A DNA stretch of 14,079 nucleotides from positions 1 through 14,079 of the forward strand of contig CAMGCN010000005.1 in assembly GCA_946040935.1 (NCBI GenBank), given 5' to 3'. A program made the position numbers and the translations under genes. Source of the DNA: an uncultured Clostridia bacterium. GTDB lineage: Bacteria; Bacillota; Clostridia; Oscillospirales; CAG-272. The notes beneath the pieces were generated by a model. It did no database searches. It saw only the letters and a list, made by a program, of their open reading frames with translations, and was not told the origin of the DNA. Below, piece by piece: positions 1 to 14,079 of the stretch; position 1 is the stretch's first letter; each line of letters begins with the position of its first letter.

Positions 1-44
1 CACCTAAGCCTTCGTCGGCAGCGTCAGATGTGTATAAGAGACAG
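1..44 (+). other. Nextera P5-side adapter (synthetic)
   Basis: Not biological. Bases 12-25 (TCGTCGGCAGCGTC) and the 19-base mosaic end at 26-44 (AGATGTGTATAAGAGACAG) are the Illumina Nextera read-1 transposon adapter. Bases 4-11 (CTAAGCCT) match the i5 index I remember as S508, preceded by the CAC that ends the P5 oligo. Genomic sequence starts at 45. Any protein called from here would begin with the adapter-derived residues MYKRQ. Confidence 0.98.
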
Positions 45-245
45 ATATATAAGCGTGTGCTTCTCAAACTTTCAGGGGAAGCTTTAAGCGTAGGCGGAAC
101 GGGAGTTCTGAATTTTGAAATTGTAGATAAGATATGCAAAGCGATAAAGGAACTGTCGGACAGCGGCACTCAGGTTGCTCTTGTAGTCGGCGCAGGAAAT
201 ATATGGCGCGGACGTTCGAGCGGGACAATGGACAAAACTCGCGCT
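45..245 (+). CDS. pyrH: UMP kinase PyrH, internal fragment in inverted chimera
   Basis: Fragment of UMP kinase, the amino-acid-kinase-fold enzyme that phosphorylates UMP to UDP in pyrimidine nucleotide synthesis. From base 48 it reads YKRVLLKLSGEAL, the phosphate-binding start of PyrH, and later VVGAGNIWRGRSSGTMDKTRA, the glycine-rich nucleotide site. About 66 residues are present. The 5' end is cut by the adapter just after the start region and the 3' end is lost at the junction with tsf near 243, where the reading turns into antisense tsf. In Firmicutes pyrH follows tsf on the same strand; here it faces the opposite way and misses several hundred bases. I read this as an amplification or library chimera of neighbouring DNA and not a real gene arrangement. 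Confidence 0.9.
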
Positions 246-247
246 TG
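240..247. other. Chimeric junction between inverted pyrH and tsf
   Basis: PyrH-like translation on the plus strand holds up to about 245 (TRA), and EF-Ts-like translation on the minus strand holds down to about 244 (QDPKNANK), so the two share only 2-3 bases. The fold-back orientation, short microhomology and loss of the sequence between two adjacent genes are typical of inverted chimeras from multiple displacement amplification. The exact breakpoint cannot be fixed without the native sequence. Confidence 0.85.
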
Positions 248-930
248 TTTGCATTTTTAGGATCCTGCTTAATCTGTGCGATAAGAACAGCCTTTTCCTC
301 GTCGATTGCGCTTTGAGGAACATCTTCCTTTGTTGCGTATGCGGGACTCATAGCTGCTATCTGAAGCGCAACATTCTTTGCACATTCTGCGAACTTATCG
401 TCCGTTGCAACGCTGTCGTCAGCATTGAACTTAACGATAACGCCCGTTGCGCCGAGGCCGTGGATATAGGTGCTCATTACACCTTCGACAACCGTGAAAC
501 GGCGAATGGAGAGCTTCTCACCTATAACAAAAGTCTTATCATTGAGTTCGGCTTCAACTGTATTTGCCGTTCCGTCAAAAGGAAGAGCCATAAGAGCGTC
601 AACGTCAGCCGGTCTCTCCTTAAGGATAGTTCTGAGTATTCCCTTTACAAATTCCGAGAAAGACGCGTTTTTAGCAACGAAATCCGTCTCAGAGTTAACC
701 TCAACCATAGCCGCGGTTTTCTTGTCATCGGAAAGCATAATGTCAACAAGGCCTTCAGCCGCAACTCTTCCCTGTTTCTTTGCCGCTACGGCAAGACCTT
801 TTTCACGAAGAATCTTCTTTGCCGCCTCAAAGTCTCCCTCAGCCTCTACAAGCGCCTTCTTGCAGTCCATCATACCGCAGCCCGTAGCTTTTCTGAGTTC
901 GGCAACCTGACTTGCACTAATATTTGCCAT
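244..930 (-). CDS. tsf: Elongation factor Ts, truncated at C-terminus
   Basis: EF-Ts, the nucleotide exchange factor that releases GDP from EF-Tu in translation. The first ~45 residues form the N-terminal UBA-like domain (VAELRKATGCGMMDCKKAL), followed by the conserved SETDFVAKN segment around residues 80-88 that contacts EF-Tu. The start at 930 has an AGGAGG 8 bases upstream. About 229 residues are genuine; after KNANK the frame runs into the chimeric pyrH piece, so an estimated 60-80 C-terminal residues are missing. Continuing the frame to a stop at 64 gives a false tail. It lies 21 bp downstream of rpsB in the usual rpsB-tsf operon and should share its promoter. Confidence 0.96.
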
Positions 931-3913: not shown

Positions 3914-5260
3914 TTATTTTTTTACAGCCCCATTACTTTTCTTAAGTTTTACGGTTATTGTGAATATACCCTCCTCGGTCTTTGTAGTGAGAACTCCGCC
4001 TGTCTTTGCAAGAATCCGGCGACAGCTCTTAAGTCCTATTTTTGTACTCGCTGTTTTCAGCGCCTCACGGTTTACATAGTTGGAAACAGAAACCGAAGCA
4101 AACTTTTCATCATCTGTAATAGAGATTCTTATGGGCTTTGCCTTATCGGCATACTTCTGTATGTTTGAAAAGATATTGTCAAACACACGGCAAAGCATAT
4201 CCGTATCTGTTTCTATGGCAAACTTATTATATGTTTCATCATAAAGATTATCAGTCTCGAAAATATATCCCTTATCTTCAAGGGCATACACATTCTCTGA
4301 TATCATTTGAGCAAGAAGCTGGAAGCCGTCCTCATACATCTCCACGCCCATACCTTCCCTCTGCTCGGGATTCTTAAACGCCGTAAAATATTCAAACAGC
4401 TTGTCTGACATTGACTTAATCTGATATGACTTATCGAGGCATTTCTTAATATATTCGTCTTTTTGTTCAGGCTTTGAATACTTTGACGATTCGATAATCT
4501 CAAGATATCCGATAAGTGCGGAAAGAGGCGTTCGCAAATCGTGCGACATTGCCGCTATAAGCTCTCTGTTTGCGGCGTAAGCCTCCTTTTCCGAATTCAG
4601 CTTATCAATGAAAGAAACACGCAAATCCTCAACGCTTTGTGCAAGCTCTGCTATCTCGTCGGTTCCTTTAACGGTAACGGCTTTTTCAAGCATACCGTTT
4701 TCTATCTCGGTAACCTCGGACGAAAGGGCGTTTATATAAGAAATCCTGCCGTGCATAAACCAATATATAAGAAATGCAAAAAACAAAAGCGCAACCACGG
4801 CTGATATCAATGTGAAAATCAAATCCAGTCTGTCGTATCTGCCCACGGCTACCCATACAGACGCAACATTATCTGTAAATCTGACCTCTGTCGAATTCCA
4901 ATAGTAATTATTTTCCGACTCGTCGTAGCTGATACTGTTTTCAGCGGGATCGTCCGAGTTGAAGACGCGCTCGCTGTCTACGAATACACGCAATATTTTG
5001 ATATCGTTTCTGTTTATCCATTTTGACAGGGAGCTCATGTCCTCGGTGGACATCTTGCTGCTCTCTACATAATCGGCAACCTGCTCGAGCTTTCCGTTCA
5101 GATAAACGGTCCTTGAGTACCAGGTTACTGTCTTCGCACCGCATAAATATAAAACAAAAAACAAACCGCAGGAAAGAATAAGCGCGCCGAACACGGATAG
5201 TATAAACTCCGTTCCCAGGCGTGATTTTATTCTACCTGCGCTGTGTTTTTCCTTACTCAA
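3914..5260 (-). CDS. Membrane sensor histidine kinase
   Basis: Two-component sensor, 448 residues. Two membrane segments (about 19-41 and 147-169) enclose a ~105-residue extracellular sensor region. A HAMP-like linker follows (about 170-225), then HisKA with the H-box AAMSHDLRTPLSALIGYLE (His240, the phosphorylated residue) and an HATPase_c domain with N-box FDNIFSNIQKYADK (Asn362, Asn366). The ATP lid is reduced: no DxGxG is seen where VSNYVNRE stands, and the G2 box is STKIGLKS. Translation begins at a TTG inside the regulator's last codons (overlap TTGAGTAA, 8 bp), with GGAAAGGG upstream. The last residues, GAVKK and stop, come from the end of the MITE, so the native C-terminus was probably different. 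Its partner is the regulator just upstream. The signal sensed is unknown. Confidence 0.93.
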   Translation of the reverse strand: MSKEKHSAGRIKSRLGTEFILSVFGALILSCGLFFVLYLCGAKTVTWYSRTVYLNGKLEQVADYVESSKMSTEDMSSLSKWINRNDIKILRVFVDSERVFNSDDPAENSISYDESENNYYWNSTEVRFTDNVASVWVAVGRYDRLDLIFTLISAVVALLFFAFLIYWFMHGRISYINALSSEVTEIENGMLEKAVTVKGTDEIAELAQSVEDLRVSFIDKLNSEKEAYAANRELIAAMSHDLRTPLSALIGYLEIIESSKYSKPEQKDEYIKKCLDKSYQIKSMSDKLFEYFTAFKNPEQREGMGVEMYEDGFQLLAQMISENVYALEDKGYIFETDNLYDETYNKFAIETDTDMLCRVFDNIFSNIQKYADKAKPIRISITDDEKFASVSVSNYVNREALKTASTKIGLKSCRRILAKTGGVLTTKTEEGIFTITVKLKKSNGAVKK

Positions 5261-5942
5261 TCCTATATCCCTTTCCCCATACTGTCTTTATATATTTAGG
5301 ATTTTGGGGATTATCCTCTATCTTTGTTCTGAGTTTTCTTATATGCACCATGACCGTATTATTCGACGCGTAATAATACGGCTCGTCCCATATACTCTCA
5401 TATATATTCTGTATTGTGAAAATCTTCTTTCTGTGCGTCGCCATTAAAAGAAGAATTTTGTATTCTATATCGGTTAAAGTAATTTCGGTATCGCCCTTAA
5501 AAACTTCATTATAGTTTTTGTTTATTACAAGGTCGGATATCGTAATGTGAGAATCGTCTTCCTTTGTTTTGCCGTTATACGTATAAAAACGGCGAAGCAA
5601 CGCTTTCACACGTGCAAGAAGCTCATTATAGGAAAAAGGCTTTGACAGGTAGTCGTCTCCTCCCGAGGAAAAACCCATCGCTTTATCCGAGTCAAGAGTC
5701 TTGGCGGTAAGAAAAAGAATCGGCACAAAAGATTTTTCCCGTATTTCGGAACAAACCTTATACCCCGATATACCCGGCATCATAACGTCGAGTATAACCA
5801 GGTCAAATGTGTCGTCAAATTTTTCGAGCGCCTCCGCTCCGCTTCCGACAGCAACGACATCATATCCCTCCCCGCCGAGGAATATGGATATTACCTCAAG
5901 CAGGTCGGGATTATCATCGACAACAAGTATTTTATTTTTCAT
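5253..5942 (-). CDS. OmpR/PhoB-family response regulator
   Basis: DNA-binding regulator of 229 residues. The N-terminal receiver (1-~118) has the acidic pair Asp9-Asp10, the phosphorylation site Asp52 (DLVILDVMMPG), Thr79 and Lys101 (YLSKPF). The C-terminal winged helix (about 130-229) has the recognition region NNTVMVHIRKLRTKIED and the closing TVWGKGYRIE wing typical of OmpR/PhoB proteins. Its start overlaps the glycosyltransferase end by 11 bp (site AAAGGGGCG upstream), and its end overlaps the kinase by 8 bp, so the three are translated as a unit. It is the natural candidate to bind the TTAAGAA repeats before its own operon and before galT. Confidence 0.96.
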   Translation of the reverse strand: MKNKILVVDDNPDLLEVISIFLGGEGYDVVAVGSGAEALEKFDDTFDLVILDVMMPGISGYKVCSEIREKSFVPILFLTAKTLDSDKAMGFSSGGDDYLSKPFSYNELLARVKALLRRFYTYNGKTKEDDSHITISDLVINKNYNEVFKGDTEITLTDIEYKILLLMATHRKKIFTIQNIYESIWDEPYYYASNNTVMVHIRKLRTKIEDNPQNPKYIKTVWGKGYRIE

Positions 5943-7215
5943 GTCCCGCCCCTTTATTTTGTAATATAAAATCGGTCATCGCAGGATTTGCAACAGGTGC
6001 ATGCATTATCGGCTTCCACTCTATCTTAAAGAACAGAGCATATATTGAAACAGGAATATAGGTAAACATAAACAGCGGGAAACTGAAAAGATACATTATC
6101 TTTTTATATCCCTTACAGCATATATAATCCCACTCGGTAATAAGGGTAATCAGGCCCATGAGGAAGAACATACCGTAAAAACCGAAGAGCGCCTGAAGAA
6201 GAAGCTGTCCGAGCTTGGCAAAAGCAGGGTCTCCTACTGCGCCCGCAAAAGCAAATGCAATTAAATCAACTATAAAAGTAACCACCGTAAAGAGAGTAAG
6301 CGGACCTATCGTTACGAGCATATCGTAGTTTGAAAAACGCTTTGACTTAAAAATCGACTTAAAGAGTTTTGCGCCGTATTTGAGAAAGACCTGATAAAAG
6401 CCTTTTGCCCATCTGCTCCTCTGTCTGAAAGACTGAGAAAGCTTTGTCGGCTGTTCGTCATAAATAACCGCTTTATCGGCGTAGCCTACAGTCTCTCCGT
6501 TTATAACATTTGATATAGTAAATTCAATGTCTTCGGTGAGAAGATAATATCTCCACCCTTTATTTTTTCTTATTATTTTATCGCTGATGAGAAAGCCCGT
6601 GCCTGAAATCGCGCAGCTGTTTCCTAATATCATACGCGAATTATTAAGGTATCTCGCCTCGCGCAAAAACCAAAGAGAGGACGCGGCGGAAATCCAGTTT
6701 GAGTCATAATTCTTTGAATTACGATAACTTGTAACTATACCGTATCCGCTGTCAAAAACAGCGTTCATTTCCTTAATATAGTTCCTATCAAGAATATTAT
6801 CCGCGTCAAATACTATAAATCCTTCATACTTTTCATATGCGTACTCGGTATATATCTTCTTGAGTATAAAATTGATTGCGTAGCCTTTGCCGACATGCGT
6901 GGTGTCGTTTCGCTCATATACGCGGGCTCCGCCCCTGCGTGCGACGTCCGCTGTCGAATCGGTACAGTTATCGGCAACGACATAAATATCGACAAGCTCC
7001 TCGGGATAATTCTGCGAATGGATGCTTTCTATAAGCTCACCTATAACATTTTCCTCGTTTCTGGCTGAAATGAGAACGGCAAACTTATGATTTTTCTTTG
7101 CAATATATCTCGCCGGCTTTTTTACAAGAGAAACAAAAACGTAAAAATACTGATAACAGAAAAACAGTGTGAACACCGCAAACATTATAAAATTAATCCA
7201 TATAATTAAATTCAT
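5932..7215 (-). CDS. Membrane GT2 glycosyltransferase
   Basis: Family-2 glycosyltransferase of the membrane, processive-like type, 427 residues, expected to use a nucleotide sugar to build or modify a surface polysaccharide or glycolipid. One N-terminal membrane segment (about 4-30) precedes the cytoplasmic catalytic domain. This has the start motif VLISARNEENVI (47-58), VVADNCTDST (Asp82), the metal-binding FDADN (Asp137/Asp139), the acceptor-base motif TED (227-229) and QRSRW (265-269), the product-binding QxxRW. Three C-terminal membrane segments follow (about 300-325, 338-360, 373-395), then the EWKPIMH tail. IcaA/PgaC- or chitin/hyaluronan-synthase-like enzymes share this layout; the sugar cannot be read from sequence. 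The ATG at 7215 is chosen because GAGGAG lies 7 bases upstream; a TTG at 7230 would overlap that site. First gene of the operon with the regulator and kinase. Confidence 0.92.
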   Translation of the reverse strand: MNLIIWINFIMFAVFTLFFCYQYFYVFVSLVKKPARYIAKKNHKFAVLISARNEENVIGELIESIHSQNYPEELVDIYVVADNCTDSTADVARRGGARVYERNDTTHVGKGYAINFILKKIYTEYAYEKYEGFIVFDADNILDRNYIKEMNAVFDSGYGIVTSYRNSKNYDSNWISAASSLWFLREARYLNNSRMILGNSCAISGTGFLISDKIIRKNKGWRYYLLTEDIEFTISNVINGETVGYADKAVIYDEQPTKLSQSFRQRSRWAKGFYQVFLKYGAKLFKSIFKSKRFSNYDMLVTIGPLTLFTVVTFIVDLIAFAFAGAVGDPAFAKLGQLLLQALFGFYGMFFLMGLITLITEWDYICCKGYKKIMYLFSFPLFMFTYIPVSIYALFFKIEWKPIMHAPVANPAMTDFILQNKGAGHEK

Positions 7216-7267
7216 TGCATATCTCCTCAATGTATTTATTCAAACGTGAATATCATACATTGATATA

Positions 7268-7318
7268 ATATTACAACAAGCTTAAATACTACCTTATGAA
7301 TTTCTTAAAATTTCTTAA
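7268..7318 (-). promoter_or_regulatory. Promoter with tandem regulator boxes, GT2 operon
   Basis: Minus strand: two exact 10-base direct repeats, TTAAGAAATT twice in a row (TTAAGAA cores at 7312-7318 and 7302-7308), with a possible degenerate third near 7292-7298. A -10 candidate TAATAT lies at 7268-7273 and has no good -35 (TAAGGT), as expected of an activator-dependent promoter. The nearer box begins 34 bp from the -10 edge, the same as at galT. The leader before the ATG would be about 45 bases. Confidence 0.65.
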
Positions 7319-7347
7319 TTTTTCAGTCGTTTACGTCAGTATTATGT

Positions 7348-7376
7348 AAAAAAGCAGACATAAAGTCTGCTTTTTT
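7348..7376. terminator. Bidirectional intrinsic terminator
   Basis: Six A, GCAGAC, loop ATAAA, GTCTGC, six T: a perfect 12-bp stem with a T-tract in both directions. On the minus strand it ends transcription of the small-protein gene and insulates the glycosyltransferase operon. Confidence 0.92.
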
Positions 7377-7550
7377 ACCTTAAACACTTAATTAAATGCT
7401 CATCCGACCAGAATAATCCATAATACCACAAGACTATTGTTAGGGAATAATCTAAAAGCAGAACGGACTAAACTTTTAAAGCTTCTTTATGTACCAAGCG
7501 CCTCCGGATGCAAAATGCGGCTTGTCCGCGATAAAATTCAATTTAATGAA
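7377..7550. other. Gene-free stretch after the small ORF
   Basis: No gene with a start and ribosome binding site is seen on either strand. On the minus strand the 55-residue ORF's frame continues after its TGA for 23 sense codons, including ASGGAWYIKKL, to a TAA. On the plus strand a frame of about 55 codons is open but has no convincing start. Both may be remnants of a longer gene or an inserted repeat. Confidence 0.4.
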
Positions 7551-7718
7551 TCAGTCGAAATACCGGTCGTATGACCCGTTGTCGTTAAAATACGCATCTG
7601 TGTACCATACGTCATCTCCACTATCATTCGTAGTGTAAACTGTCGTCGACACAATCATAATATCGTCCGATACAAACTCTTCGACTAAAGCCGTTGGCAA
7701 TTCGAAGATTTTCTTCAT
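7551..7718 (-). CDS. Small acidic protein of 55 residues, unknown function
   Basis: A short ORF that I think is real. It begins MKKIFELPTALVEEFVSDDI and ends GSYDRYFD; it is strongly acidic (Asp/Glu about 13), aromatic-rich at the end and has no membrane segment or signal peptide. The start MKK-[IY]-[YF]-E-x-P-x-x-x-V followed by an acidic D-[IV]-[IM] resembles, from memory, a loose group of 40-60-residue gut Clostridia and Bacteroidota proteins with unknown role. AAAGGAG lies 14 bases before the ATG, which is long; a CTG three codons earlier, at 7727, would have better spacing. It has its own sigma-A promoter (7794-7822) and a terminator after it, so it is a single-gene unit. No modification enzyme or transporter lies beside it. 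Confidence 0.65.
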   Translation of the reverse strand: MKKIFELPTALVEEFVSDDIMIVSTTVYTTNDSGDDVWYTDAYFNDNGSYDRYFD

Positions 7719-7793
7719 CGTAGTCAGATCATCTCCTTTCCGTATTATTCGCTGAGGTTTAGCAGGGTGTACATCCCCATACTATCTGTTAAT

Positions 7794-7822
7794 ATAATAC
7801 AACAAATCGTTCAAAAAATCAA
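7794..7822 (-). promoter_or_regulatory. Sigma-A promoter of the small-protein gene
   Basis: Minus strand: TTGATT (7817-7822), 17-bp spacer, TATTAT (7794-7799). About 70 leader bases separate the expected start from the ATG at 7718. It lies directly behind the pepD stop codon. Confidence 0.72.
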
Positions 7823-7850
7823 GAGATTTTTATAAATTGTTAAAAAAGCG

Positions 7851-9287
7851 TCAGCAATTTGCCAGAATCGTACATAAAAGAGAATATGTTCTCCCAAAAG
7901 AGTCGAGCGACATACGCTCTCTCGTTGTGTGAACATCGAAAATGTCAGGACCTATTGAAATGATATCTGCTTGCTCTCCCATTGCGCCTGAAACAAATCC
8001 GCATTCGACCCCTGCATGAAAAGCGCAAACACGAGCTTCCTTTCCCGTCTGCTTTTTATATAAATCCCTGTAAAGGTCGATAAGAGCGCCTTTGTCCGAC
8101 CCCTGCCAGCAGGGATAATAACCTCCCCTTTCGAGCTCGGCTCCGCAGAGATATGAAGCCGCCTCGTAATGCGCCGCATATTCATTAAGTCTTGCAGCGG
8201 TGTTAAATCTGAAAAGATAGGTAAGCTCGATTTTATCTTCGCAGGTTTTGACAGCGCCGAGATTTGATGATGCGTCTGCAAGCCCCTCGATTCTGTTTGA
8301 CATGTTAAGCAGGCCGCTCGGAGAAAGAAGCGCGCAGGATATTATCTTGTGAGTCTGTGCAAAGGTCACGGCTTCATGGGCGTCTTCCGCTTTTTTTGCA
8401 CGTATTTGCATTTTTCCGTCATCGTAACTCAAGGTAGTGCGTATTTCCGATAGGAAATCAGAAATATCGTCACGCAGCGTTTTGTAGTCGGGGTATGTTA
8501 TCACAGCCTCCGACTCACGTGTTATGACATTGTGCTTTTCCCCTCCGTTTACCGAAACTATACCGAAAGGATTACGTGAATACAAGTGAGAAAGGAGAAG
8601 AAACATCACATCGTTTGCATTTCTTCTGCCGAGCTTGACATCGGCTCCCGAATGACCTCCGCAAAGTCCCGAGACCGTAACGGTAAAGGTTTTGTCGGTG
8701 TTCTTGACTTTTTTAAGCAAATGACGGATATAAATATTTTGTCCGCCTGCACATGATACAACTGCCTCTCCCTCTGTTTCAGAGTCAAGATTGACACAGC
8801 GCTTTGAGCTGATATGCGAATAGTCAAAGCCGCTTGCGCCGCTCATGCCGACTTCTTCGTCTGAAGTAAAGAGACATTCGAGCGCCGGATGAGAAAGCTC
8901 GCTGTCATCAAGTATTGCAAGCATTATGGCAACCGCGGCTCCGTCGTCGGCGCCAAGGGTAGTGCCGTTTGCGCGAAGAAACTTGTCATCGTAAACGAGC
9001 TCTATCGGATCTTTTTCAAAATCATGTTTAACCCCTTTATTAGCTTCGCACACCATATCCATATGGCCCTGAAGCATAATAGGAGCGTCGTTTTTTCTGT
9101 CAGGGGAAGCGCATTTATATATTACTATATTATTAAGCTTGTCTCTGTAATATGAAAGCTTGCGCTCGCAGGCAAACGATTCGAGATAATCGGCAATTCC
9201 CTTTTCGTTTCCCGAACCGCGCGGAATTTTTGATATTTCTTCAAAAAAAGCAAGAGCTTTTTGCGAGTTGTTGTTTTCGCTTGACAT
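7851..9287 (-). CDS. pepD: Cytosolic dipeptidase PepD (M20C)
   Basis: Zinc-dependent aminoacyl-histidine dipeptidase (cytosol nonspecific dipeptidase), 478 residues, which cleaves dipeptides such as Xaa-His in the cytoplasm for amino-acid recovery. M20 motifs: GHMDMV with His75 and Asp77, LGADDG with the bridging Asp114, and TSDEEVG with the catalytic and metal-binding Glu144/Glu145. GLCGGHSGAD opens the lid domain, and a late His (DVHTTRERM) completes the site. The start at 9287 has GAGGAG 7 bases upstream; in-frame codons above it (to 9314) would swallow that site. No strong promoter is visible just upstream. Monocistronic by the galE terminator before it and the small-gene promoter after it. 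Confidence 0.96.
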   Translation of the reverse strand: MSSENNNSQKALAFFEEISKIPRGSGNEKGIADYLESFACERKLSYYRDKLNNIVIYKCASPDRKNDAPIMLQGHMDMVCEANKGVKHDFEKDPIELVYDDKFLRANGTTLGADDGAAVAIMLAILDDSELSHPALECLFTSDEEVGMSGASGFDYSHISSKRCVNLDSETEGEAVVSCAGGQNIYIRHLLKKVKNTDKTFTVTVSGLCGGHSGADVKLGRRNANDVMFLLLSHLYSRNPFGIVSVNGGEKHNVITRESEAVITYPDYKTLRDDISDFLSEIRTTLSYDDGKMQIRAKKAEDAHEAVTFAQTHKIISCALLSPSGLLNMSNRIEGLADASSNLGAVKTCEDKIELTYLFRFNTAARLNEYAAHYEAASYLCGAELERGGYYPCWQGSDKGALIDLYRDLYKKQTGKEARVCAFHAGVECGFVSGAMGEQADIISIGPDIFDVHTTRERMSLDSFGRTYSLLCTILANC

Positions 9288-9329
9288 AATCTGTCTCCTC
9301 ATAAAAATAAGCATTCAAAGTAATAAGCA

Positions 9330-9358
9330 CCGGCAAAGCCGGATGGTTTTAAGAAACC
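9330..9358 (-). promoter_or_regulatory. Two small hairpins in the pepD leader
   Basis: CCGGC/GCCGG around AAA (9330-9342) and GGTTT/AAACC around TAAG (9345-9358) lie 43-71 bp before the pepD ATG. Neither is followed by a T-tract, so they are not clear terminators. Role unknown: leader structure or mRNA protection. Confidence 0.4.
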
Positions 9359-9367
9359 AAACTAATC

Positions 9368-9397
9368 AAAAAGCAACAACCTAAGTTATTGCTTTTT
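9368..9397 (-). terminator. Intrinsic terminator of galT-galE
   Basis: Minus strand: AAAAAGCAATAAC, loop TTAG, GTTGTTGCTTTTT, a 13-bp stem with one G-U pair, ending in T residues and starting 12 bp after the galE stop. The A-tract on the other side may let it work both ways. Confidence 0.88.
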
Positions 9398-9409
9398 TGT
9401 CAGTTTAAT

Positions 9410-10393
9410 TCAGTCTCGGTAGCCCTGCGGATGTGTGCTGTGCCATTTCCACGCCGTAGCAATAATCTCTTTAATGCCGTATTCGCGTTTCCAGCCGAGC
9501 ACTCTCTCCGCCTTTTCGCTTGAAGCGATAAGAACGGGCGGATCTCCGGGACGTCTTTCGTTTATCGAAGCGGGAATAGGTTTTCCCGTAACCTCACGCG
9601 CGGCATTCAGTATCTCAAGGTTTGAGTAACCGCCGCCCGAGCCGAGGTTAAAGGAATCCGAACAATTATTTTTTATCATATATTCCATTGCGAGGATGTG
9701 CGCCTGTGCAAGATCGCTTACATGTATATAGTCACGAACACAGGTGCCGTCTTTCGTCGGATAGTCGCCGCCGAAGACAGAAAGCTTCTCGCGTTTTCCC
9801 GCCGCAACCTGAAGCACGATAGGAATAAGGTGAGTCTCAGGCCTGTGGTCTTCGCCTATATCACCCGACGGATGAGCGCCCGCAACATTGAAATATCTGA
9901 GACATATACTGTTTATTCCATAGGCAACTCCGAACCATTTAAGCATCTTTTCCATTGCAAGCTTTGTCTCGCCGTAGGTGTTTATCGGATTCTGCGGCGT
10001 CGTCTCTGAAATCGGAATTTCGTCAGGTTCGCCGAATGTGGCCGCGGTCGATGAAAATACAATGTTTTTTACATCATGCTTTACCATGCTGTAAAAGAGA
10101 TTCATACTCTGACAGACGTTATTATTATAATATTCATAAGGCTTCTCCATGCTCTCTCCGACGAGCGAAAAAGCGGAAAAGTGCATAACACCGTCAATTT
10201 TATTTTCGGAAAAAATCTTGTCCATCAATTCGCCGTTGCCGATATCTCCGACATAGAGCTTGGTGCCCTTCACCGCGTCGGCGTGGCCTTTTACAAGGTT
10301 GTCAACGACGACTACGCCGTAGCCCTTTTCTTTAAGCGCGGCAACCGCATGGCTTCCGATATAGCCTGCTCCGCCTGTAACGAGTATATTCAT
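9410..10393 (-). CDS. galE: UDP-glucose 4-epimerase
   Basis: Interconverts UDP-glucose and UDP-galactose (Leloir pathway) in the cytoplasm; 327 residues. It is an extended short-chain dehydrogenase: NAD-binding [10 protein letters not shown] (6-15), substrate/catalytic SSTAATFG (114-121), the YxxxK pair Tyr140/Lys144 ([11 protein letters not shown]), [13 protein letters not shown], and [13 protein letters not shown] typical of GalE. Its ATG shares one base with the galT stop (TAATG), with AAAGGCGG upstream, so it is coupled to galT. With GalT it provides UDP-galactose, a likely donor for the surface glycosyltransferase encoded in this window. No galK is present here. Confidence 0.97.
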
Positions 10394-11385
10394 TATTTTC
10401 TACCGCCTTTCAGATATTTTTCGAGCGCCTCTCTTATCTGCCCCGCGTTTCTTTCGGGAGAGGACGGATTACAGCATGCCCATGCGCCCGATTCGCTCGA
10501 AGCACGGAACTGCTGTGTGTTTGCCCCTCTCATAGGGGGAAGCATCTCGATATGAAAATGATAGTAGTTATCAGGATTTTCGTGATAGTTTACGGGGGCG
10601 TTGTGCATACACATCATATACGGGAAACGCGTGTCAAACAAGCTGTCGTACGCGCCAGTCACATTCTGTATTATCTCGCCGAGGTCGTCCTTGTCTTTAT
10701 CGTCAAACCGGGCTATACTGCTCTTATGTCCTTTAATGCTGATATTTACACCGTAAGCGTAATCGGCAAAAAAAGGAACATACGCAATAAATCTTTCATT
10801 CTCAAAAATAACACGCTCGCCAAAGCGTTTTTCCTCTGCGTCTATATCGCAAAAAAGGCACTTGCCTGTCTTTTCGTAATACTCCTTTGCCGAAGCAAGC
10901 TCGGTTTCAAGCTTTTTCGGAATGAAAGAGTAGCCGTATATCTGACCATGGGGATGCGGCTGTGTCACGCCGACCGCCTCGCCACGGTTTTCAAATATAT
11001 ATACATATTTAATCTTCTCATCGGAAGAAAGGTCAACAAATCTGTCCTTCCACAAATCGACAAGCTTTCTCATATGCTCGCGTGAGAGACCGTGAATGGT
11101 TCCGTTATGTTCGGGAGAGAACAGTATCACCTCACACTTGCCGTAAGTCGGCGCAACTTTATATAAACCTTTTGCCTCCTCGGTAAAAGGAGTATCCTCC
11201 TCGGGCGGATTTTTTGAAAGTGCAGGAAAATCGTTATCGTACTTGAGTACCGTATATTCCTCCGGCACTTTTCCCGAGCCCGGACAAAAAGGACAGTAGT
11301 CCTTGGGCATGACAGGACGCTTTGCCCTATTTGACACTACCATTACCCAATCCTTAATAATCGGGTTCCATCTTAATTCTGCCAT
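10393..11385 (-). CDS. galT: Galactose-1-phosphate uridylyltransferase
   Basis: Transfers UMP from UDP-glucose to galactose-1-phosphate (Leloir pathway); 330 residues of the HIT superfamily. Zinc-site cysteines are in CPFC (Cys31, Cys34). The active site THPHPHGQ-type motif reads TQPHPHGQ, with His146 as the expected uridylylated nucleophile. A second HIT-like half carries [11 protein letters not shown]. The ATG at 11385 follows AGGTG by 6 bases; a TTG at 11406 would lie above that site and is rejected. Promoter and boxes at 11431-11502 suggest control by an OmpR-type regulator. Galactose use or UDP-sugar supply are both possible roles. Confidence 0.97.
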
Positions 11386-11430
11386 GATAACACCTATTAT
11401 ATGCAATTAATATAAAAATACTACCTGGTA

Positions 11431-11459
11431 ATTATATCACAGCATCTAACGCATTTCAA
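11431..11459 (-). promoter_or_regulatory. Sigma-A promoter of galT-galE
   Basis: Minus strand: TTGAAA (11454-11459), 17-bp spacer, TATAAT (11431-11436), with TGA before it (extended -10). Leader about 40 bases. The regulator boxes begin 5 bp upstream of the -35. Confidence 0.85.
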
Positions 11460-11464
11460 CACAT

Positions 11465-11502
11465 TTCTTAACAATTCTTAAGAAATCTTAACTCTTTATT
11501 AA
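11465..11502 (-). promoter_or_regulatory. Tandem regulator boxes upstream of galT
   Basis: Minus strand: TTAAGAA at 11475-11481 and 11465-11471, TTAAGAT at 11485-11491, all exactly 10 bp apart, and a looser TTAATAA at 11496-11502 that overlaps the ruvX stop codon. One helical turn between half-sites is the usual style of OmpR-family binding. The same core repeats at 7302-7318 before the operon that encodes such a regulator. Confidence 0.68.
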
Positions 11503-14038: not shown

Positions 14039-14079
14039 CTGTCTCTTATACACATCTCCGAGCCCACGAGACGCTACGC
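14039..14079 (+). other. Nextera P7-side adapter (synthetic)
   Basis: Not biological. The mosaic end CTGTCTCTTATACACATCT (14039-14057) is followed by CCGAGCCCACGAGAC (14058-14072), the read-2 adapter, and GCTACGC, seven of eight bases of the i7 index I recall as N709. Reverse-strand ORFs entering here begin with the known artefact peptides MYKRQ and MGSEMCIRDS. Confidence 0.98.

Follow-up and report, generated by a model that had tools for sequence, protein, structure and literature searches.

The window analysed here is a stretch of 14,079 nucleotides from an uncultured Clostridia bacterium (contig CAMGCN010000005.1), which carries on its minus strand an operon for a GT2 glycosyltransferase, a response regulator of the OmpR/PhoB family and a sensor histidine kinase. 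Three TTAAG boxes precede this operon in a layout that is kept in all four genomes of the genus examined and that recurs in other genera in front of homologues of the regulator and in front of GT2 genes. This conservation and genomic association suggest that the repeats are probably the operator of the regulator encoded in the operon itself, which would most likely act on it as an activator. Similar repeats stand before the neighbouring galT gene.

Three TTAAG boxes in the promoter of the GT2 operon

A preliminary description of this DNA had reported two exact copies of TTAAGAA, ten bases apart on the minus strand (7302-7318), ahead of the GT2 operon, and both are present as claimed. It had overlooked an additional TTAAG at 7281-7285, with which the promoter reads TTTAAG-N10-TATTAT. 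A consensus scan returned zero sigma-70 matches here. Upstream of this proximal box, the window has a degenerate CATAAGG at 11 bp and clear boxes at 23 and 33 bp. The leaders of the window and of three further loci (L038-L040) gave no Rfam match at the gathering threshold, and a known RNA is thus not supported.

The same description had placed the nearest box of the tandem repeats 34 bp from the -10 in both the GT2 and the galT promoter. This equality does not hold, because it took TAATAT (7268-7273) as the -10 of the GT2 promoter, whereas the TTAAG-N10-hexamer layout gives TATTAT (7265-7270). With the -10 placed by conservation, the distances are 37 bp (GT2) and 34 bp (galT), and equal spacing is rejected as a sign of a common promoter design.

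Conservation in the genus

The genome of the window contig (G000; 1.26 Mb in 242 contigs, 68% complete) was compared with three others of the genus, G001, G002 and G003. Since G001 and G002 are ~93% identical over nine concatenated proteins, the four genomes represent three lineages, which are mutually 63-69% identical. The regulator is 77-78% identical in G001-G003, and in all four genomes TTAAG stands at 0, 10 and 33 in the GT2 promoter. The comparison of relatives that keep the regulator, which the preliminary description had proposed, thus speaks for its GT2 half. The box sequence TTAAGAAATTTTAAGAA is identical between the window and G003, for which the nine concatenated proteins are 64% identical. 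Box 1 lies anywhere from 92 to 215 bases before the GT2 start (estimated start positions), yet the boxes keep their spacing to one another, and this points to selection acting on the operator.

The pattern TTAAS-N5/6-TTAAS-N17/19-TTAAS has one match per genus genome, always in the GT2 promoter, and the control, here as in the scans below the pattern read backwards, has six matches in the four genomes. The count itself is therefore at chance level, and the evidence is that all four matches are the same promoter.

The layout recurs in the family and the class

Wider scans covered 196 family genomes and 391 class genomes. They ignored gene positions, and the best TATAAT-like hexamer 7-19 bases downstream was taken as the -10. 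In the family, the TTAAG form (boxes at 0, 10 and 33) was found at 8 sites (control 4): four are at the GT2 operons of the genus from which the layout had been derived and four precede regulator homologues of other genera, one of which (L238) is 57% identical to the window regulator. A CTTAA form (0, 11, 34) was found at 16 sites (control 2), where the next gene is a regulator homologue (35-41% identical) in 10 cases, a GT2 gene in three and another gene in three. A regulator homologue or a GT2 gene is thus next downstream of all 8 TTAAG sites and of 13 of the 16 CTTAA sites. In two genomes (G182 and G176) the regulator-kinase operon and the GT2 gene lie on different contigs, and each has a three-box site. 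At the level of the class, the CTTAA form has 21 sites (control 11), nine before regulator homologues, two before GT2 genes with a kinase just upstream and 10 before others; the neighbours of these sites are non-random despite the modest excess.

The -10-like hexamer begins ten bases after the last box at 7 of the 8 TTAAG sites, the exception being G003. At the CTTAA sites of the family it lies at 12 bases in 14 of 16 cases and at 13 bases in two, and at those of the class at 11 bases in 13 of 21, at 12 in two and elsewhere in six. Sites beside regulators and GT2 genes in other genera, together with the conservation in all four genus genomes, support the earlier proposal that the regulator controls its own operon, and predicted autoregulation with GT2 as the target is well supported by this comparison. 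Used as a search string, the layout found regulator operons without gene annotation, and it could yield target lists for orphan regulators. A repeat first noticed by eye thereby connects a two-component system with a putative surface polymer synthase across the family, in a way that can be tested.

Some further sites were characterised by eye. At L243 (G006:C24, site ending at 2668) a CTTAA three-box site precedes YhcH-like, UDP-galactopyranose mutase-like and glycosyltransferase-like genes, a context that, in this other genus, would tie the operator to polymers of galactofuranose. Two more three-box sites mark possible further envelope targets: that of L247 (G187:C45) is followed by ABC-transporter-, acyl-ligase- and MBOAT-like genes in a run, and that of L242 (G006:C5) by a GntR-like gene accompanied by an ABC transporter. 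In three class genomes of genus g129 (L257, L259 and L260) 510-558 bases separate the site from the first long frame downstream, which in each case encodes, after this long leader, a related secreted-looking protein.

Linkage of GT2 genes and regulators

Of the 196 family genomes, 83 have a GT2 match with an E value of 1e-40 or lower, and the loci of the best 30 of these matches, 26 of them outside the genus, were examined. At eight of the 26 loci, in seven genera, an OmpR-type regulator lies in the same gene run as GT2, in the order GT2-regulator-kinase (L190-L192) or regulator-kinase-GT2 (L183-L187). The other 18 GT2 loci are without an adjacent regulator, and several of these stretches end within 1-2 kb of GT2. 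At L206 a partial regulator match lies 4.4 kb from GT2 on the other strand. TTAA[GC] pairs occur upstream of the operon at four of the eight linked loci (L184 and, with three boxes each, L190, L191 and L192) and, among the 18 unlinked loci, at L188 (-97) and L200 (-404 from the predicted start). At the latter (G182:C20, 4425-4806), ~380 bases separate the three-box site from the predicted GT2 start. The GT2-linked regulators fall into two groups of the regulator tree (FastTree, midpoint root, without support values), so there may have been more than one origin, or re-wiring, of the link to GT2.

A further 80 regulator-homologue loci, together with L041-L043, gave no GT2 or galT match by tblastn at 1e-6 and one weak galE match (L096), and they served for a test of upstream repeats only. 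Among 82 upstream regions of 200 bp, which are phylogenetically non-independent, CTTAA/TTAAG recurs at period 11 in four loci (0.08 expected), second among repeated pentamers, and at period 10 in two (0.09 expected). The first-ranked pentamer, CTGAC, recurs at period 11 in three loci (0.01 expected) and is perhaps a second operator type among the regulator homologues. This enrichment suggests that TTAA boxes are a common property of related regulators rather than a mark of the window regulator alone. A comparison of recognition helices failed to separate regulators with boxes from those without.

Frequency of the repeats in the window and the genus

TTAAGAA occurs 12 times in the window on both strands taken together, compared with 4.02 copies (standard deviation 2.05, largest 10) in 200 dinucleotide shuffles. 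Counted over 15 spacings (gaps of 2-16 bases), G000 holds 47 TTAAG pairs, which is near the background given by the control (40). Period 10 accounts for five of the 47, and three of these five are in the GT2 and galT promoters; the remaining two lie inside a frame of 713 amino acids (C58) and across the end of a frame of 310 amino acids (C184). The genome search for the 10-bp tandem repeat, which the preliminary description had suggested, does not support a wide regulon of such pairs in G000. Intergenic dinucleotide shuffles reproduced the galT three-box chain in 1 of 5000, the GT2 three-box layout in 0 of 5000 and the simple GT2 pair in 101 of 5000, with patterns that were picked after the sequence had been seen and in regions that both have 26% G+C.

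The four genus genomes contain 18 matches to the stricter TTAASANNNNTTAASA (control 7), 10 of them within the GT2 and galT promoters. Among the other eight are L138 and L141 within long frames, L140 across a frame end, the start of an aspartate-kinase-like frame in G001 and G002 (L128/L129) and an intergenic place in G003 (L139, the place of L220 below). The remaining two of the eight are a period-10 pair TTAAGAAGAATTAAGA near 1501 in L132 (G001) and L133 (G002), in the gap after an rplL-like gene. The places common to the near-identical G001 and G002, of which this one is intergenic, may mark a further target there.

The array upstream of galT

Three copies of TTAAGAA and a looser fourth had been reported before galT. 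The first two are exact (11465-11471 and 11475-11481), the third (11485-11491) is TTAAGAT and agrees in 6 of 7 positions, and the looser copy is present as TTAA at 11499-11502. The scan of this region returned two promoter-like sites (1.2 expected).

Across the four genus genomes there are eight matches to three TTAAS boxes at 10-11 bp (control 2): three overlapping ones at galT in G000, three at galT in G003, one at L220 (G003) and one in a coding frame of G001. The galT array is thus the only place of this kind in G000. In G003 the galT boxes lie at 36/47/57/67 bp from the -10 compared with 35/45/55/66 bp in the window (by eye), so that the TTAA cores are at near-equal distances, the flanking G being mostly on the opposite strand. 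The GT2-operator 16-mer TTAAGAAATTTTAAGA is found on the opposite strand of this array.

At L220 (G003:C10:29167-29192), three TTAAG boxes at 10-11 bp lie ~105-130 bases before the gene of a predicted membrane-anchored, cysteine-rich surface protein of 453 amino acids.

Comparison with known systems

Binding to head-to-tail repeats in the form of dimers is frequent among OmpR-family regulators (PMC6222199), and tandem TTAAG/CTTAA operators are already known for CiaR, BAS0540, RR_1586 and PmrA. CiaR of the streptococcal CiaRH system belongs, like the window regulator, to the OmpR family and has head-to-tail TTAAG boxes. At CiaR-activated promoters, TTTAAG lies ten bases before the -10 (PMC3091779), as does the proximal TTTAAG of the window. 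CiaR sites consist of two boxes at period 11 (NTTAAG-N5-TTTAAG), whereas the window has a pair at period 10, located 23 bp upstream of a third box, and lacks a further TTAAG at exactly 11 bp ahead of that proximal box. The published recognition helix of CiaR is VVEVYVSKVRKKL, that of the window regulator TVMVHIRKLRTKI. BAS0540, a homologue of CiaR, causes a shift of the region upstream of its own gene, where such a site lies (PMC4938410).

RR_1586 of Clostridioides difficile (consensus DRTTAAGNWWWDRTTAAGNWWW) likewise combines OmpR-family membership with TTAAG direct repeats and predicted autoregulation (PMC6222199). It differs by its period of 11 and by its listed targets, which include sporulation and germination genes; no link to a GT2 gene was found in the part of that report available. 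The head-to-tail CTTAAG / XTTAAT half-sites of the enterobacterial PmrA box (PMC3973317) resemble the CTTAA form of the relatives. The PmrA box has two half-sites with five bases between them (period 11). In the window, TTAAG recurs at period 10 with a third box in addition, and the boxes do not read CTTAAG-N5-XTTAAT. PmrA controls envelope modification genes.

VanR and VanS are the best NCBIfam matches of the window regulator and kinase, with scores below the cut-offs (249.7 of 350 bits for VanR-ABDEGLN and 99.6 of 400 for VanS), and no van resistance genes are among the window genes examined. The three-box layout with its conservation, and the recurrence of GT2 as a target, are what this analysis adds. 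We recognised no description of a GT2-regulator-kinase operon with such an operator in the open-access literature searched.

Weighing the readings

Several observations weigh against the regulator of the operon as the reader of these boxes. Four of the eight GT2-linked regulator loci are without upstream TTAA[GC] pairs, the best -10 of G003 is 15, not 10, bases past the third GT2 box, and the class-level excess is only twofold over the control. The published CiaR, PmrA and RR_1586 sites have period 11, while the distal pair before GT2 has period 10. As for galT, the G003 boxes are mostly TTAAG on the strand opposite to that of the window, and galT of G001 and G002 has no array although both genomes keep the regulator. 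The preliminary description had itself counted such an absence against its proposal, so this goes against the part that put UDP-galactose supply (galTE) under the regulator, while the recurrence of the array in G003 favours it. Seven galT loci (L146-L152) in six genomes outside the genus also have no such boxes; a regulator match at E 1e-60 is absent from four of these genomes and present, at 45-47% identity, in G019 and G057, so that the six are a weak test of the galT idea. The reach of the local regulon proposed earlier is accordingly strong for the GT2 operon and weaker for its galactose neighbours.

Coincidental A/T-rich sequence would find some room in the 26% G+C of both regions, in the TTAAG pairs of G000, which are not clearly enriched, and in the frequency of the simple GT2 pair among the shuffles. 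Given the conservation in three diverged lineages, the recovery of the layout beside regulators and GT2 genes elsewhere and the fixed distance to the -10, a chance origin of the GT2 repeats nevertheless appears very unlikely. The regulator could also repress its own operon, with the unphosphorylated form covering the core promoter until phosphorylation releases it. This has been proposed for RR_1586, which is described as repressing self-expression until phosphorylated (PMC6222199), and box 3 of the window does lie within the core promoter. However, the absence of a sigma-70 match in the scan at the GT2 promoter suits activation, and the TTTAAG of CiaR-activated promoters stands at the same ten-base distance (PMC3091779). 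Activation by a phosphorylated dimer on boxes 1 and 2 would be the simplest model, and repression is a possible but rather improbable one.

The galT array may be a different matter. It might serve another TTAA-reading regulator of the OmpR family or belong, as an UP-like element rich in A/T, to a constitutive promoter, either of which would leave the GT2 operator unchanged. The galT promoter is near-consensus and needs no activator, and the array is missing where the regulator is kept in G001 and G002. Moreover, TTAA tandem boxes precede many different OmpR-type regulators, so the sequence alone leaves the binder ambiguous, and first-look candidates (3 in G000, 8-12 in G001-G003) suggest that there are more such regulators per genome. 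On the other hand, three TTAAS boxes at 10-11 bp are confined to galT in G000 and to galT and one other intergenic place in G003, the GT2-operator 16-mer recurs in the G003 array, and a UP element requires no 10-bp phase. We regard this alternative as plausible but the less probable one, and see an even chance that the galT array is a second, lineage-variable target of the same regulator.

Proposed mechanism

For an activating regulator of its own operon, we infer the following scheme of binding, activation, signal and polymer. Dimers of the regulator would bind the head-to-tail TTAAG boxes, of which the distal pair is 10 bp apart and the third box lies 23 bp further on. The third box, at about the -35 position and ten bases before the -10, would be contacted next to the polymerase. 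The phosphorylated regulator would most likely activate GT2, itself and the kinase, and the resulting positive loop would respond to an envelope signal by making a surface polymer. The galT array would be bound upstream of an already good promoter and would tune UDP-galactose metabolism.

More tentatively, a membrane polysaccharide synthase of the GT2 family could be, throughout the class, a recurrent core target of at least two separate clades of OmpR-family regulators. These would share a distinct three-box operator in place of a -35 element (boxes at 0, 10-11 and 33-34 bp, the -10 at a fixed distance), read by a distal dimer and through a lone proximal half-site, with galactose-nucleotide supply added in this genus and a UDP-galactopyranose mutase-like operon in another. 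We consider this wider reading possible rather than probable.

Genes and features of the window

The minus-strand order of the genes is pfkB, alpha/beta hydrolase, ruvX, galT, galE, pepD, GT2-response regulator-histidine kinase, spoIVA, ylmC, rpsB and tsf. The names are mostly from Pfam and NCBIfam, spoIVA scoring above its NCBIfam family cut-off; those of the hydrolase, ylmC, rpsB and tsf come from reading the translations by eye. The spoIVA gene by itself points to a spore-forming member of the Firmicutes, probably a clostridial one. G001-G003 are largely syntenic with the window over this block, and the hydrolase is matched in G003 only. Features are listed in Table 1.

Table 1. Coordinates of the promoter elements and principal genes in the window.
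Feature	Position	Strand	Remarks
GT2 operator box 1, TTAAGAA, most distal	7312..7318	-	kept in 4/4 genus genomes
GT2 operator box 2, TTAAGAA, 10 bp from box 1	7302..7308	-	kept in 4/4 genus genomes
GT2 operator box 3, TTAAG, 23 bp from box 2	7281..7285	-	10/23 spacing in 4/4 genus genomes
-10 hexamer TATTAT of the GT2 promoter, without a good -35	7265..7270	-	best hexamer 10 bases after last TTAAG in 7/8 TTAAG-type sites
GT2 glycosyltransferase	5932..7215	-	Pfam PF13641 1.4e-25; ATG at 7215 chosen by eye
Response regulator, OmpR/PhoB family	5253..5942	-	PF00072 1.2e-26, PF00486 1.7e-24; closest models VanR
Sensor histidine kinase	3914..5260	-	PF00512, PF02518
galT, galactose-1-phosphate uridylyltransferase	10393..11385	-	TIGR00209 206.3 bits, cut-off 102.1
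galE, UDP-glucose 4-epimerase	9410..10393	-	TIGR01179 437.1 bits, cut-off 262.3
galT operator-like array TTAAGAA, TTAAGAA, TTAAGAT, 10-bp steps	11465..11491	-	shuffles 1/5000
Looser fourth TTAA box, overlapping the ruvX stop codon	11499..11502	-	
galT promoter TTGAAA-17-TATAAT, TG before the -10	11431..11459	-	11/12 consensus matches

The regulator has the receiver domain and the winged-helix Trans_reg_C domain that define the OmpR/PhoB family, both above their cut-offs (PF00072, 93.5 bits against 30.2; PF00486, 86.1 bits against 26.2). The GT2 protein matches PF13641/PF13632, and the motifs FDAD, TED and QRSRW, found by eye in its translation, suggest a processive synthase of the membrane type, predicted to make a polymer. 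Its scores stay under the NCBIfam equivalog cut-offs, the best being EpsU (123.6 of 700), with PgaC at 65.5 of 422.3.

The contig end seems chimeric (window 1-330 and 14040-14079): by eye, tsf on the minus strand runs into an inverted, pyrH-like 5' fragment on the plus strand. Both ends of the contig translate to VYKRQ / SEMCIRD strings, which we take to be a common assembly artefact.

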